NCBI RefSeq assembly: GCF_002148795.1
Contig: NZ_MPOB01000001.1
Coordinates: 496,001-560,000 of the forward strand
DNA from: Oceanibaculum nanhaiense
Lineage (GTDB): Bacteria > Pseudomonadota > Alphaproteobacteria > Oceanibaculales > Oceanibaculaceae
DNA: 64,000 bases
Reading direction: 5' to 3'
Shown: piece by piece, positions 30,294-36,700 of the stretch
Layout: each line of letters starts with the position of its first letter
Numbering within the stretch: position 1 is the first letter of the stretch
Program-made: the position numbers and the translations under genes
Notes under the pieces: model-generated
Databases searched by the model: none
The model's input: only the letters and a program-made list of their open reading frames with translations
Told to the model about the DNA's origin: nothing

Positions 30294-31517
30294 TTACAGC
30301 TTGCCACGGGCTTTGAGGTGCTTCAGCACGGCGGCCAGATCCTTGTCGCCGCGGCCGCAGAGATTCATCACCATCAGATGGTCCTTCGGCAGGGTCGGCG
30401 CCAGCTTGCCGACATAGGCCAGCGCGTGGCTCGGCTCCAGCGCCGGGATGATGCCTTCCATCTGTGCGCACAGCTTGAAGGAATCCAGCGCCTCCTCGTC
30501 GGTGGCGCTGACATAGCTCACGCGGCCGGTTTCGTGCAGCCAGGAATGTTCCGGCCCGATGCCGGGATAGTCGAGGCCGGCGCTGATCGAGTGGGCGTCG
30601 GTGATCTGCCCGTCCTCGTTCTGCAGCAGGTAGGTGCGGTTGCCATGCAGCACGCCCGGCCGTCCGCCGGTCAGCGAGGCGGCATGCTTGCCGGTATCGA
30701 GGCCGAGACCGGCGGCCTCCACCCCGTACATCTTCACCGACGGATCGTCTAGGAAGGGATGGAACAGGCCGATGGCGTTGGAGCCGCCGCCGATGCAGGC
30801 AACCAGGCTGTCGGGCAGGCGGCCCTCGGCCTCCATCATCTGCTCGCGCGTTTCGGTGCCGATCACCGACTGGAAGTCGCGCACCATGGCGGGGTAGGGG
30901 TGCGGGCCGGCAACCGTGCCGATGATGTAGAAATGCGTCTCCGCCTTGGCCACCCAGTAGCGCAGCGCCTCGTTCATCGCATCCTTCAGCGTCGATGTGC
31001 CGGAGGTGACGGGCACCACCTCGGCGCCCAGCAGGCGCATGCGCTCGACATTGGGCTGCTGGCGCTCGATATCCTCGGCGCCCATGAAGACCTTGCAGTT
31101 CATGCCGAACAGCGCGCAGACCGTGGCGGTGGCCACGCCATGCTGGCCGGCGCCGGTCTCGGCGATGATCTCTGTCTTGCCCATGCGCTTGGCGACCAGC
31201 GCCTGGCCCAGGCAATTGTTGATCTTGTGCGCGCCGGTGTGATTCAACTCGTCGCGCTTGAAGTACAGCTTGGCCCCACCGAAATGCGCCGTCAGCCGCT
31301 CCGCGAAATAGAGCGGCGAGGGCCGGCCGACATAATGTTTCAGGTAATAATCGAACTCCGCCTTGAAGTCCGGGTCCGCCTTCGCCGCCTTGTAGGCCGC
31401 CTCGACCTCCAGGACCAACGGCATCAGCGTCTCGGCGACGAAGCGTCCGCCGAAGATGCCGAAATGCCCGGATTCGTCCGGTCCGGCACGATAGGTATTG
31501 GGGATGGAACTGGCCAT
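30294..31517 (-). CDS. trpB: Tryptophan synthase beta chain
   Basis: 407 residues (TrpB1 type). PLP lysine K98 is in [11 protein letters not shown], followed by the [10 protein letters not shown] and GGGSNAIG phosphate loops. It condenses indole with serine. ATG 31517 ([12 protein letters not shown]) is the conserved start; the frame stays open to 31805 but that extension reads antisense through hicA. Upstream, where trpF is expected on the same strand, lies an oppositely oriented hicAB pair, so trpB either uses its own promoter in 31518-31637 or depends on read-through from trpF across hicAB. Confidence 0.97.
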
Positions 31518-31604
31518 CGTCACTACGCCATTCGTCAGGGGTTCATGAGACGCCGCATAATGCAGACCTTGCCGCTTCTGTGCAAGGCGGGCGGCGGGGC
31601 TTGA

Positions 31605-31637
31605 TTGTATGGACACATTCAGTAAGTATAAGTGTGT
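31605..31637 (+). promoter_or_regulatory. Candidate hicAB promoter with overlapping small dyad
   Basis: TTGTAT at 31605-31610, a 16-base spacer and TATAAG at 31627-31632. Arms ACACA (31613-31617) and TGTGT (31633-31637) flank the -10 and could be a HicB operator. The predicted start point (about 31639) falls on the hicA ATG at 31638, so the transcript may be leaderless. On the other strand TACAAT at 31604-31609 could be a -10 for trpB. Confidence 0.35.
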
Positions 31638-31826
31638 ATGAATAGCCGCGAGATCATACACCGGCTGGAGCGGGAAGGCTGGAGGGAAGTGGCACGCAAG
31701 GGAAGCCACGTCCAGTTCAAGCATCCCGTCAGGCCGGGTCGGGTGACGGTGCCGCATCCGAAGAAGGATATACCGGCCGGCACCTTGCGCAGCATCGAGC
31801 GGCAATCGGGACTGAAACTGACATGA
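31638..31826 (+). CDS. hicA: HicA family mRNA interferase toxin
   Basis: 62 residues of the double-stranded-RNA-binding-like HicA fold. It begins [15 protein letters not shown] and contains the catalytic-histidine region [11 protein letters not shown] and the [15 protein letters not shown] segment, as in type II HicA toxins that cleave mRNA. The histidine in GSH is present, so the toxin is probably active. Its stop overlaps the hicB start by four bases (ATGA). It lies on the strand opposite to trpF and trpB, between them. Confidence 0.9.
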
Positions 31827-32224
31827 CCCTGTCTTATATCGCCTTGATCCATAAGGAGGCCGGCAGCGATTTCGGCGTCTCCTTTCCCGATTTCCCCGGT
31901 TGCATCAGCGCCGGTGCAACATTGGAAGAAGCGCGCGCCATGGCGGATGAGGCGCTGGCCCTGCACATAGAAGGCATGCTGGAGGATATGCAGGAACTGC
32001 CCGCCCCATCCAGCCTGGATGCCATTATGGCCGATCCGGAAAACCGTGACGGGGTGGCAATCCTGGTGCCGGCACCGCCAGGCAGCGCGCGGGCGGTGCG
32101 GGTAAACATCACCTTGCCGGAAGATTTGCTGTCCGCCATCGACCGCCATGCGGCGAATTCAGGCCTCAGCCGCTCCGGCTTTCTGGCCTCGGCGGCGAAG
32201 CAGGCGCTGCGGAAGGCCGGCTAG
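31823..32224 (+). CDS. hicB: HicB family antitoxin with C-terminal RHH domain
   Basis: 133 residues. The N-terminal partial RNase-H-like HicB domain (about 4-60, with [21 protein letters not shown]) neutralises HicA. A C-terminal ribbon-helix-helix (about 97-130, [18 protein letters not shown]) should bind its own promoter. The stop codon lies within a CTAG that is also the stop of the convergent trpF, so the two genes share bases 32221-32224. That tight junction marks the downstream edge of the insertion. Confidence 0.9.
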
Positions 32225-32865
32225 GCCGCCTTCGCCGCTTTCAGGAAGGCCTGGATCAGCGGGATCGACTTGCGGCCCGGCGCATCCTCCACGCCGGAGG
32301 AGACGTCCACGCCCGGCGCACCGCTGGTGCGGATCGCCTCGGCGACATTATCCGGCGTCAGCCCGCCGGCCAGCAGCCAGGGCTTGCCGAAATGCGCGCC
32401 TGCGAGCAGCTGCCAGTCGAAGCGCAGCGCATTGCCGCCGGGCAGTGCGCCCGTCATCTCCTTCGGCGGTTTCGCGTCGAACATCAGCATGTCGACGACC
32501 GGCTCATAATCGCTGGCCTTGGCCACATCTTCCGCGCCGGCCACGGACAGCACCTTCATCACCGGCACGCCGAAGCGGCTGCGGACATCGGCCACGCGCG
32601 CCGGCGTTTCGTGCCCGTGCAGCTGCAGCAGGCCAGGCCGCATGGTTGAAAGGATGATCTCCAGCAACGCGTCATCGGCATCGACGGTCAGCGCCACGGT
32701 GCGGACACTGGCGGGCACCGGCTTCGTCAGCTCGGCGGCCTGTTCGGGGGTCACGTTGCGCGGCGAGCGCGGGTAGAAGACGAAACCCAGGAAATCCGCC
32801 CCGCCCGCGATGGCGGCGGCAACGCTCTCCGGTGTCGAGAGGCCGCAGATCTTGACCAGCGCCAT
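32221..32865 (-). CDS. trpF: Phosphoribosylanthranilate isomerase
   Basis: 214 residues. The general base C7 is in MALVKICGLST and the acid D130 is in LMFDAKPP; the phosphate-binding GGLTPDNV and GVDVSSGVE segments are present. It converts PRA to CdRP in tryptophan synthesis. ATG 32865 is one base after the pyrF stop codon, so it is co-transcribed with pyrF; a longer start at 32961 reads through pyrF. Its 3' end converges on hicB. Confidence 0.96.
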   Translation of the reverse strand: MALVKICGLSTPESVAAAIAGGADFLGFVFYPRSPRNVTPEQAAELTKPVPASVRTVALTVDADDALLEIILSTMRPGLLQLHGHETPARVADVRSRFGVPVMKVLSVAGAEDVAKASDYEPVVDMLMFDAKPPKEMTGALPGGNALRFDWQLLAGAHFGKPWLLAGGLTPDNVAEAIRTSGAPGVDVSSGVEDAPGRKSIPLIQAFLKAAKAA

Positions 32866-32866
32866 G

Positions 32867-33598
32867 TCAGAGGTCCGCGATCTCGGCGGCGATGCGGGCG
32901 ACGGCCCCGGCGGGATCGGCAGCGCCGGTGATCGGCCGGCCGATGACGAGGTAATCGGCACCGGCGCGGATCGCGTCAGCCGGGGTCATGATACGCTTCT
33001 GGTCACCGGTCTCGCTCCAGGCCGGGCGGATGCCGGGCACGATCAGCTTGAAGTCGCGGCCGCAGGCGGCGCGCACGGCGGCGATCTCTCGGGCCGAGCA
33101 GACGATGCCGTCGAGGCCGCAATCCTTTGTCAGCCGGGCGAGCCTGACCACTTGCTCCACCGCCGGCCCCTGCTGGCCGACGGCGGCGAGGTCGCCATCG
33201 TCCAGGCTGGTCAGCACGGTGACGGCGATCACCAGCGGCTTCTTGATGCCGGCGGCATGCGCGGCCGATTCGGCGGCGTCGCGCGCGGCCTCCATCATCG
33301 CCCGCCCGCCGCTGGCATGGACGTTCAGCATGAAGGGCTGGCAGGTACCGGTGGCGGCGCGCACCGCGCCGGCGACCGTGTTCGGAATGTCGTGATATTT
33401 CAGATCGAGGAAGATCGGGTGGCCGGCCTCGGCCACCTTGCGCACCCCGGCCGGGCCGTGGGCGTTCACGAACTCAAGGCCGAGCTTCACGCCGCCAAGC
33501 CCCGGCCCCAGCCGCCTGGCAAGTCCCGCGGCATGGTCGAGGTCAGTGGTGTCGATCGCGCAGAAGACGGGGGAGAGGGCGGCGTTCGTGTCGGTCAT
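32867..33598 (-). CDS. pyrF: Orotidine 5'-phosphate decarboxylase
   Basis: 243 residues. The catalytic D-x-K-x-x-D array is D65, K67, D70 in FLDLKYHDIPNT, and the C-terminal phosphate loop VIGRPITGA is intact. It makes UMP from OMP. It is followed directly by trpF and preceded, 14 bases upstream, by the ornithine cyclodeaminase homologue. The pyrF-trpF pairing is typical in Rhodospirillales. Confidence 0.97.
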   Translation of the reverse strand: MTDTNAALSPVFCAIDTTDLDHAAGLARRLGPGLGGVKLGLEFVNAHGPAGVRKVAEAGHPIFLDLKYHDIPNTVAGAVRAATGTCQPFMLNVHASGGRAMMEAARDAAESAAHAAGIKKPLVIAVTVLTSLDDGDLAAVGQQGPAVEQVVRLARLTKDCGLDGIVCSAREIAAVRAACGRDFKLIVPGIRPAWSETGDQKRIMTPADAIRAGADYLVIGRPITGAADPAGAVARIAAEIADL

Positions 33599-35016: not shown

Positions 35017-36195
35017 TCAAGATTTGGTGGCGAGCTTGATGCCGAAATCGGCCAGCGCGGTCTTCTGCTCGTCGTCGAGCACGGCCTGGGTCAGGTCAGC
35101 ACCTTCCAGAACAGTGGCGCGGCTGCGCCCCGTCGGCCGTCCGTCAGCGCCCATGATCGGCGCGGGGCCCAGCTTGGCGCCGGACAGGTCGGCATTGTTC
35201 AGTTTGGCGCCGGACAGATTGGCACCGGACAGATTGGCGCGCACCAGGCTGGCCTGCGCCAGATTGGCGCCGGACAGATCCGTCAGTACCAGCAGTGCGC
35301 CGTTAAGCAGGGCGCTTTGCAGATTCGCCGCGCGCAGGCTGGCGCCCGACAGGTTGAAGCCGCGCAGATCGGCATCAGCGAGATCGGCGCCATCCAGTTC
35401 CGCGCGTTCGCCGCGCTGGCCCTGGCTGCTGACCCAGCGGTCATGATCGAAGAGCTGGCGGTGCAGCTCGATGTCGAAACCGTCCAGCGGCGGCGCGAAA
35501 TTGGCGCCTTCGGTATCGGCCCCGTCCAGCACGCCGTCGGTGAGTGTCACGCCGACCATCCGGGCGCGCTTCAGATTGGCGCCGTTGAAATGGGCATTGC
35601 TGAGATTGGCGCCGTTCAGCAGGGCCTCGCTGAGGTTGGCGGCGCCGAAATCGGCCTCGGTCAGGTCGGTGTTGCGCATATTGGCACCGGCCAGGCTGGC
35701 ATTGCGCAGCACGGTTCCGACCAGCATCGCGCCGGTCAGGTCGGCCTGGTCCAGATTGGCGCCGGACAGGTCGGCGCCGGACAGGTTGGTGAGGCGCAGC
35801 ATTGCCCCTTCGAAACCGGGCGAGGACATGGAGGCCGTGCCGTGCGCGCCGCGCAGATCGGCACCATTCAGATCACTGTCCCGGAAGCTGGCGCCGGACA
35901 GGTTCGCATCCACCAGACTGGCCTTGCGCAAGGACGCCTTGTCCAGCGTCGCCGCGGTGAGGTCCGCCCCGGTCAGGTCGGCGCCTTCAAGATTGGCGCC
36001 GGTCAGGCGGATGCCCTGCAGGCCCGCGCCGCACAGCTGGCATTTCCGCAGGTCCTGGCCGGACAGGTCGAGGCCGAACAGGCTGACATTGGAAAAATTA
36101 GCCGGCACGGCATCATCCGCGCCAGCAAGCCAGCGCCGGTGCGCTTCCAGCTCAGCGAAGATGTGTTCGCGCGATTTGTAGGAATGCAAGGCCAT
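35017..36195 (-). CDS. Pentapeptide-repeat protein
   Basis: 392 residues. After an N-terminal helix (about 1-30), almost all of the protein is made of A(D/N)Lxx pentapeptides, for example GADLTGADL, GANLDQADL and GANLSNAHF, with a short non-repeat insert near residues 220-255. The repeat builds a right-handed quadrilateral beta helix. Some such proteins mimic DNA and protect gyrase, but most have no known role, and this one lacks features that would place it in the Qnr/MfpA group. It is monocistronic and next to a PAS protein and cfa. Confidence 0.92.
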   Translation of the reverse strand: MALHSYKSREHIFAELEAHRRWLAGADDAVPANFSNVSLFGLDLSGQDLRKCQLCGAGLQGIRLTGANLEGADLTGADLTAATLDKASLRKASLVDANLSGASFRDSDLNGADLRGAHGTASMSSPGFEGAMLRLTNLSGADLSGANLDQADLTGAMLVGTVLRNASLAGANMRNTDLTEADFGAANLSEALLNGANLSNAHFNGANLKRARMVGVTLTDGVLDGADTEGANFAPPLDGFDIELHRQLFDHDRWVSSQGQRGERAELDGADLADADLRGFNLSGASLRAANLQSALLNGALLVLTDLSGANLAQASLVRANLSGANLSGAKLNNADLSGAKLGPAPIMGADGRPTGRSRATVLEGADLTQAVLDDEQKTALADFGIKLATKS

Positions 36196-36229
36196 GACGC
36201 AGTTTAAAACAGGAAGGGTTAAGCGTCTG

Positions 36230-36700
36230 TTAATCCAGACTCGTGCTGTGATATTCCGGCGCCGCCATTTCACGGTAGAAGCCGATCAGCAGCATCCGCA
36301 CCTCGTTTTCCTCGCCCAGGGGCAGGACGAGGCGATGATAATAGCCGACATTGCGATCGTTCGGATGGAAGCGGTGGCTTTCATAAACCGGCTGCCGGTC
36401 GGCGAGGATGCGGTTGTAGCTCGCAATGGCGGGGTTGCGCAGCGCGGTGATGTTGTCCTCGTCAATATAGCGACCGGTCAGGTCCGCGCCGCGAATGGTG
36501 CAGACATTGGTGCCATAGAGCCGGAAGCGGAAGCGGACCTGCGCGCCGCGCTCCACATCGACCAGAATCAGATTCGGCAGGAGGGCGGGAATATCAACCG
36601 GGTCGAGATCCGCGCGTGCCGGCATGAGGCGGTCGCCGCGCCTGCCATCCCAATAATCGTAGAGCTGGCGTAGCTTGCCATGGTCGATCTTATCCCGCAC
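36230..36700 (-). CDS. PAS domain protein (PAS_5-like)
   Basis: 156 residues from a GTG at 36700 that has AGAAGGGG just upstream. It contains a single PAS-like fold (LYDYWDGRRGDRLMPARADLDP, IPALLPNLILVDVE, FRFRLYGTNV, TGRYIDE, and a YHRLVLPL strand), the pattern of the alphaproteobacterial PAS_5 (DUF1491-like) family. There is no attached kinase, cyclase or HTH output domain, so it may be a stand-alone sensor. An ATG at 36775 is possible but would overlap cfa by about 40 bases. The ligand is unknown. Confidence 0.75.
   Translation of the reverse strand: MRDKIDHGKLRQLYDYWDGRRGDRLMPARADLDPVDIPALLPNLILVDVERGAQVRFRFRLYGTNVCTIRGADLTGRYIDEDNITALRNPAIASYNRILADRQPVYESHRFHPNDRNVGYYHRLVLPLGEENEVRMLLIGFYREMAAPEYHSTSLD

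Follow-up and report, generated by a model that had tools for sequence, protein, structure and literature searches.

A complete hicA–hicB pair lies between trpF and trpB, on the strand opposite to both, and it is very probably a recent, species-specific gain with clean filled and empty junctions. The explanation that we favor, with considerable confidence, is a horizontally transferred, self-contained hicAB module that would have landed at the stop codon of trpF and for which no special link with tryptophan is needed. The gene content, the empty site, the junctions, the conserved block upstream of trpB and the homologues of the module are observed directly.

The hicAB pair and its junctions

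The window (the whole stretch of 64,000 nucleotides that was analyzed) contains on the minus strand trpB, for the beta chain of tryptophan synthase (30294–31517; identified by family search), and trpF, for phosphoribosylanthranilate isomerase (32221–32868). Between them, on the plus strand, hicA (31638–31826) encodes a toxin of 62 residues and hicB (31823–32224) an antitoxin of 133 residues, with an N-terminal HicB domain and a C-terminal ribbon–helix–helix (RHH) domain at residues 92–132. The start codon of hicA is the ATG at 31638 (an alternative GTG at 31632 is possible) and its stop ends at 31826. The toxin gene comes first and overlaps hicB in an ATGA (31823–31826), while hicB and trpF overlap tail-to-tail by 4 nt in a CTAG (32221–32224) that holds both stop codons. 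The first-pass annotation had described this pair, its opposite orientation and the end of hicB inside the CTAG of the trpF stop, and the open reading frames and coordinates are right.

HicA matches the Pfam family HicA_toxin with 79.6 bits (E = 1.9e-22; curated cut-off 27) and HicB matches HicB_lk_antitox (PF15919) with 127.5 bits (E = 4.2e-37). The RHH domain reported at first reading is kept, with RHH_5 as the second Pfam domain of HicB (40 bits, E = 3.3e-10). The product of trpF belongs to Pfam PRAI and NCBIfam TrpF, that of trpB to Pfam PALP and NCBIfam TrpB. The solved chains matched by HicA and HicB are those of B. pseudomallei. With HicA (4c26/6g26), 59 residues align (E = 1.7e-18), and residues 7–131 of HicB, nearly its full length, match 6g1n. 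In the GSH of HicA (residues 22–24), the histidine falls opposite residue 24 of the B. pseudomallei toxin, which is alanine in the solved chains, and the catalytic histidine noted earlier is indeed present. A catalytic role is described for His24 of HicA (PMC11594946). Since both proteins score above the curated family cut-offs and the site is empty in a sister species with trpF and trpB products 92%–96% identical to those of the window, the pair is not a chance call. By its sequence, hicAB is a standard type II toxin–antitoxin module. As in the HicAB of Sinorhizobium meliloti (PMC6327479) and B. pseudomallei (6g26, 4c26), there is a HicA toxin with the catalytic His24, a HicB with an N-terminal neutralizing domain and a C-terminal RHH, and the toxin gene precedes; on the other hand, the sequence has diverged and the genomic site is different.

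The genus sample comprises the species of the window and three sister species (G001, G002, and G003), with G003 the closest (trpF 92% and trpB 96% identical). In two of the three sisters, trpF and trpB are adjacent without hicAB, separated by 83 nt in G003 and by 130 nt in G001. In a global alignment with G003, homology ends after position 31594 and resumes at the stop codon of trpF (TGA in G003, TAG in the window). The inserted segment, read on the plus strand, extends from 31595 to 32220 (∼627 bp, with edges to ∼5 nt) and contains the operator/promoter region and the two genes only. In the three sister genomes, there is no DNA match to the insert and the HicB protein of the pair is not encoded. 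A mobile element around the insert was considered and rejected: the promoter and the two genes leave no space for a further gene, and the segment has no match in the DNA of the sisters. As to a target-site duplication, no repeat longer than 3–4 bp could be seen by eye at the junctions, and a repeat of that size is indistinguishable from the G+C-rich context. The left edge, GGCTTGAT, resembles the inverted end of trpF of G003, a likeness left as probable chance.

In most genomes of the class with both genes on one contig, the trpF–trpB gap is below 300 nt. With the gaps of G003 and G001, this agrees with the earlier view of the pair as an insertion into an otherwise short junction, and the empty junctions in these two relatives favor a recent insertion. 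The absence of hicAB in the relatives could in principle result from several losses instead. The sample of four species and the rearranged junction of G002 leave some room for an old arrangement, with hicAB at this site in the ancestor of the genus and lost in the sisters, but the junctions of G003, the closest sister, and of G001 are compact, no remnant of the insert is seen in either and neither genome encodes the HicB of the window, so that such a history appears extremely improbable. The recent gain is the reading kept below.

The trpF–trpB junction is usually tight, not inviolable, since several genera carry other genes there: a patatin-like gene on the trp strand (G014), an open reading frame on the opposite strand (G043), and other genes (G019 and G025). 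Loci with unrelated genes at this junction in other genera (L140:2939–3577, L141:3018–4052, L145:1050–2222, and L146:2180–3124) contain an opposite-strand reading frame whose end resembles a J domain, a patatin-like gene, and two reading frames without family match. A literature search on trpFBA in the class found no paper.

Signals upstream of trpB and hicA

The edge of the insert is directly upstream of a block that precedes trpB, and the block itself is intact. Its 24-nt sequence GGCAAGGTCTGCATTATGCGGCGT, just 5′ of trpB, is invariant in four of four species. Given that 133 of the 207 four-fold degenerate sites of trpB (64%) are identical in all four, an invariant run of that length has a chance of ∼2e-5 per start position. 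A 22-nt core of the block is found a single time in each genome, in every case ahead of trpB. Within the block, which the four species share, a putative trpB promoter (31557–31585, minus strand) reads TTGCAC-17-CATTAT (TTGCAC/TTGCGC, 17 nt and CATTAT at 31585–31557); the hexamers match the σ70 consensus at three and four of six positions. In G002, trpF and trpBA are on separate contigs (L110 and L144): trpF is followed by MarR-like and GroEL genes and trpB, on another contig, lies 3′ of a branched-chain-transporter-like (livF-like) ATPase gene (neighbor names read from the translations). The upstream block is retained there although trpF is elsewhere. This retention with trpB without trpF upstream, the invariance and the single copy together suggest that trpB is probably independent of read-through from trpF. 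In the simplest reading, the block is probably the promoter of trpB itself, spared by the insertion; it could also be a regulatory leader rather than a promoter. A trpB start site within 31518–31637, raised at first reading, now has a candidate in this putative promoter, on sequence evidence. An inverted repeat CCTTGC...GCAAGG (31570–31590, minus strand), conserved in the sisters and partly duplicated in G002, overlaps the putative –35 of trpB and could be an operator.

According to the first-pass annotation, transcription from trpF into trpB would be antisense to hicBA and could tie the toxin to tryptophan demand, or the reverse. In such a scheme, read-through would repress hicBA or, reciprocally, hicAB transcription would lower trpF. 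The geometry is real, with convergent trpF and hicB ends overlapping by 4 nt, and a terminator-like site was looked for at the junction and not found. However, trpB is separated from the insert by the block with promoter spacing, which is conserved and position-independent and is probably a promoter; further, none of the three sisters has the insert, so that nothing points to a selected linkage. Once the trpB block is seen, the antisense coupling appears to lose its main support; it is neither needed nor supported, and we consider it very unlikely. For tryptophan synthesis, this is a caution, as a link with the toxin is unnecessary given trpB's own upstream block.

For hicA, the earlier proposal was a promoter overlapping the region upstream of trpB. 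The best candidate is instead inside the insert (31605–31638, plus strand), where a putative promoter TTGTAT-16-TATAAG (TTGTAT from 31605; TATAAG at 31627–31632), nearly leaderless, is combined with putative HicB operator half-sites (ACACATT ... GTGTGTAT). In the upstream region of trpB, the only plus-strand match to a promoter consensus (31532–31561) was discarded as a hicA promoter: that sequence is also present in the sisters without hicAB. One putative half-site, TGTGTAT, is just 5′ of and at the ATG of hicA. Of 42 homologues, 38 carry half-sites of the type TGTGTA/TACACA 5′ of hicA (mean of 1.4 and maximum of 5 in shuffled sequences). Next to the start codon, the usual forms in the homologues include GTGTGTATAAATACACAC and ATACACATTCGTGTGTAT, and the variant of the predicted operator in the window is GACACATTCAGTAAGTATAAGTGTGTATG, around the TATAAG –10. 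The half-sites of the window fit the autorepression of hicAB via the RHH domain of HicB, demonstrated by gel shift in S. meliloti (PMC6327479), where there is also an experimental precedent for the RNase activity of HicA (PMC6327479). At another locus (L092), a 19-nt sequence 5′ of hicA, ATACACACTTATACTTACT, matches the hicA upstream sequence of the window exactly in reverse complement, as if the operator were flipped.

The predicted operator (∼31609–31638) is ∼24 bp from the putative –35 of trpB, and HicB bound there could alter the trpB promoter, so that the state of the toxin–antitoxin pair would shift trpB transcription. Such a coupling of the divergent promoters is improbable, because the insertion is recent and species-specific and the predicted operator is upstream of the –35 hexamer, not on it.

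In the favored explanation, the module (promoter/operator, hicA RNase toxin, and hicB antitoxin–repressor) would have been acquired by horizontal transfer in the species of the window, at the stop codon of trpF, in a short spacer and just upstream of the presumed promoter of trpB. HicB would repress its own promoter through the TGTGTAT half-sites and mask the active site of HicA, with the translation of hicB coupled to that of hicA via the ATGA overlap. The insertion would be tolerated because trpF, trpB, and the trpB promoter are all unbroken, and no special tie to tryptophan is needed. The transfer, the promoter activity, the binding of HicB, the toxicity, and the neutrality of the insertion are the parts that we infer from sequence.

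Relatives of the module and a second slot after livM

Homologues of HicB ∼60%–71% identical are found in Caulobacter, Rhizobium, Roseomonas, and other Alphaproteobacteria; relatives occur also on plasmids and, with up to 69% identity, on viral contigs. We did not find a relative closer than ∼71%. That the module came together with trp genes from elsewhere was rejected, with no trpF, trpB, trpA, or pyrF at 66 loci of HicB homologues.

There are four HicA genes in the genome of the window. A second hicAB pair (contig C5; L139, 4674–5253) is directly 3′ of livM, immediately past its stop codon, and before a gene for a transporter of the Sbt_1 family. In G003, the slot after livM (L149:2548–3140) contains a higBA-type pair, with a HigB-like toxin (34.9 bits) and an HTH_3 protein. 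Both genomes have the same left breakpoint, TGAGGCTT, to within about one base. Homology between G001 and the genome of the window also ends at that breakpoint, and in G001 neither a toxin–antitoxin pair nor the Sbt gene is there. The livM slot is thus common to two types of module in sister species. That modules in this genus generally enter defined slots, at or just after stop codons and by a scarless mechanism, is a tentative and rather unlikely extension; if true, it would make the integration route of such modules testable.

Known insertions of this kind

Toxin–antitoxin pairs between housekeeping genes are documented: mazEF between relA and mazG, a gap that parDE occupies in Salmonella; ccdO157 (ccd) in the folA–apaH interval of E. 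coli O157:H7; and yafNO in dinB–yafP (PMC7167474). The features common to these insertions and the present one are a small module without a mobile element between housekeeping genes, empty sites in relatives, and the use of one gap by different modules. The window pair differs in being antisense to its neighbors, in a stop codon overlapping that of the neighbor and in its alphaproteobacterial host. Similarly, the first description of hicAB was of an insertion into the pilus gene cluster of Haemophilus (PMC11594946), strain-specific and within another gene cluster, with a different site and host. The entry of toxin–antitoxin modules into housekeeping operons and the sharing of slots are already known; what is new is an example with unusually clean filled and empty junctions. 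Such insertions are considered likely to be independent of the biological functions of the modules, and their integration mechanism is stated to be unknown (PMC7167474); junctions at base level are therefore useful raw material. The genus offers a clean filled/empty pair and a second slot in which module types alternate between sister species. Near the trp/pyrF cluster of the window, a long protein of pentapeptide-like repeats is encoded on the minus strand (35017–36273).
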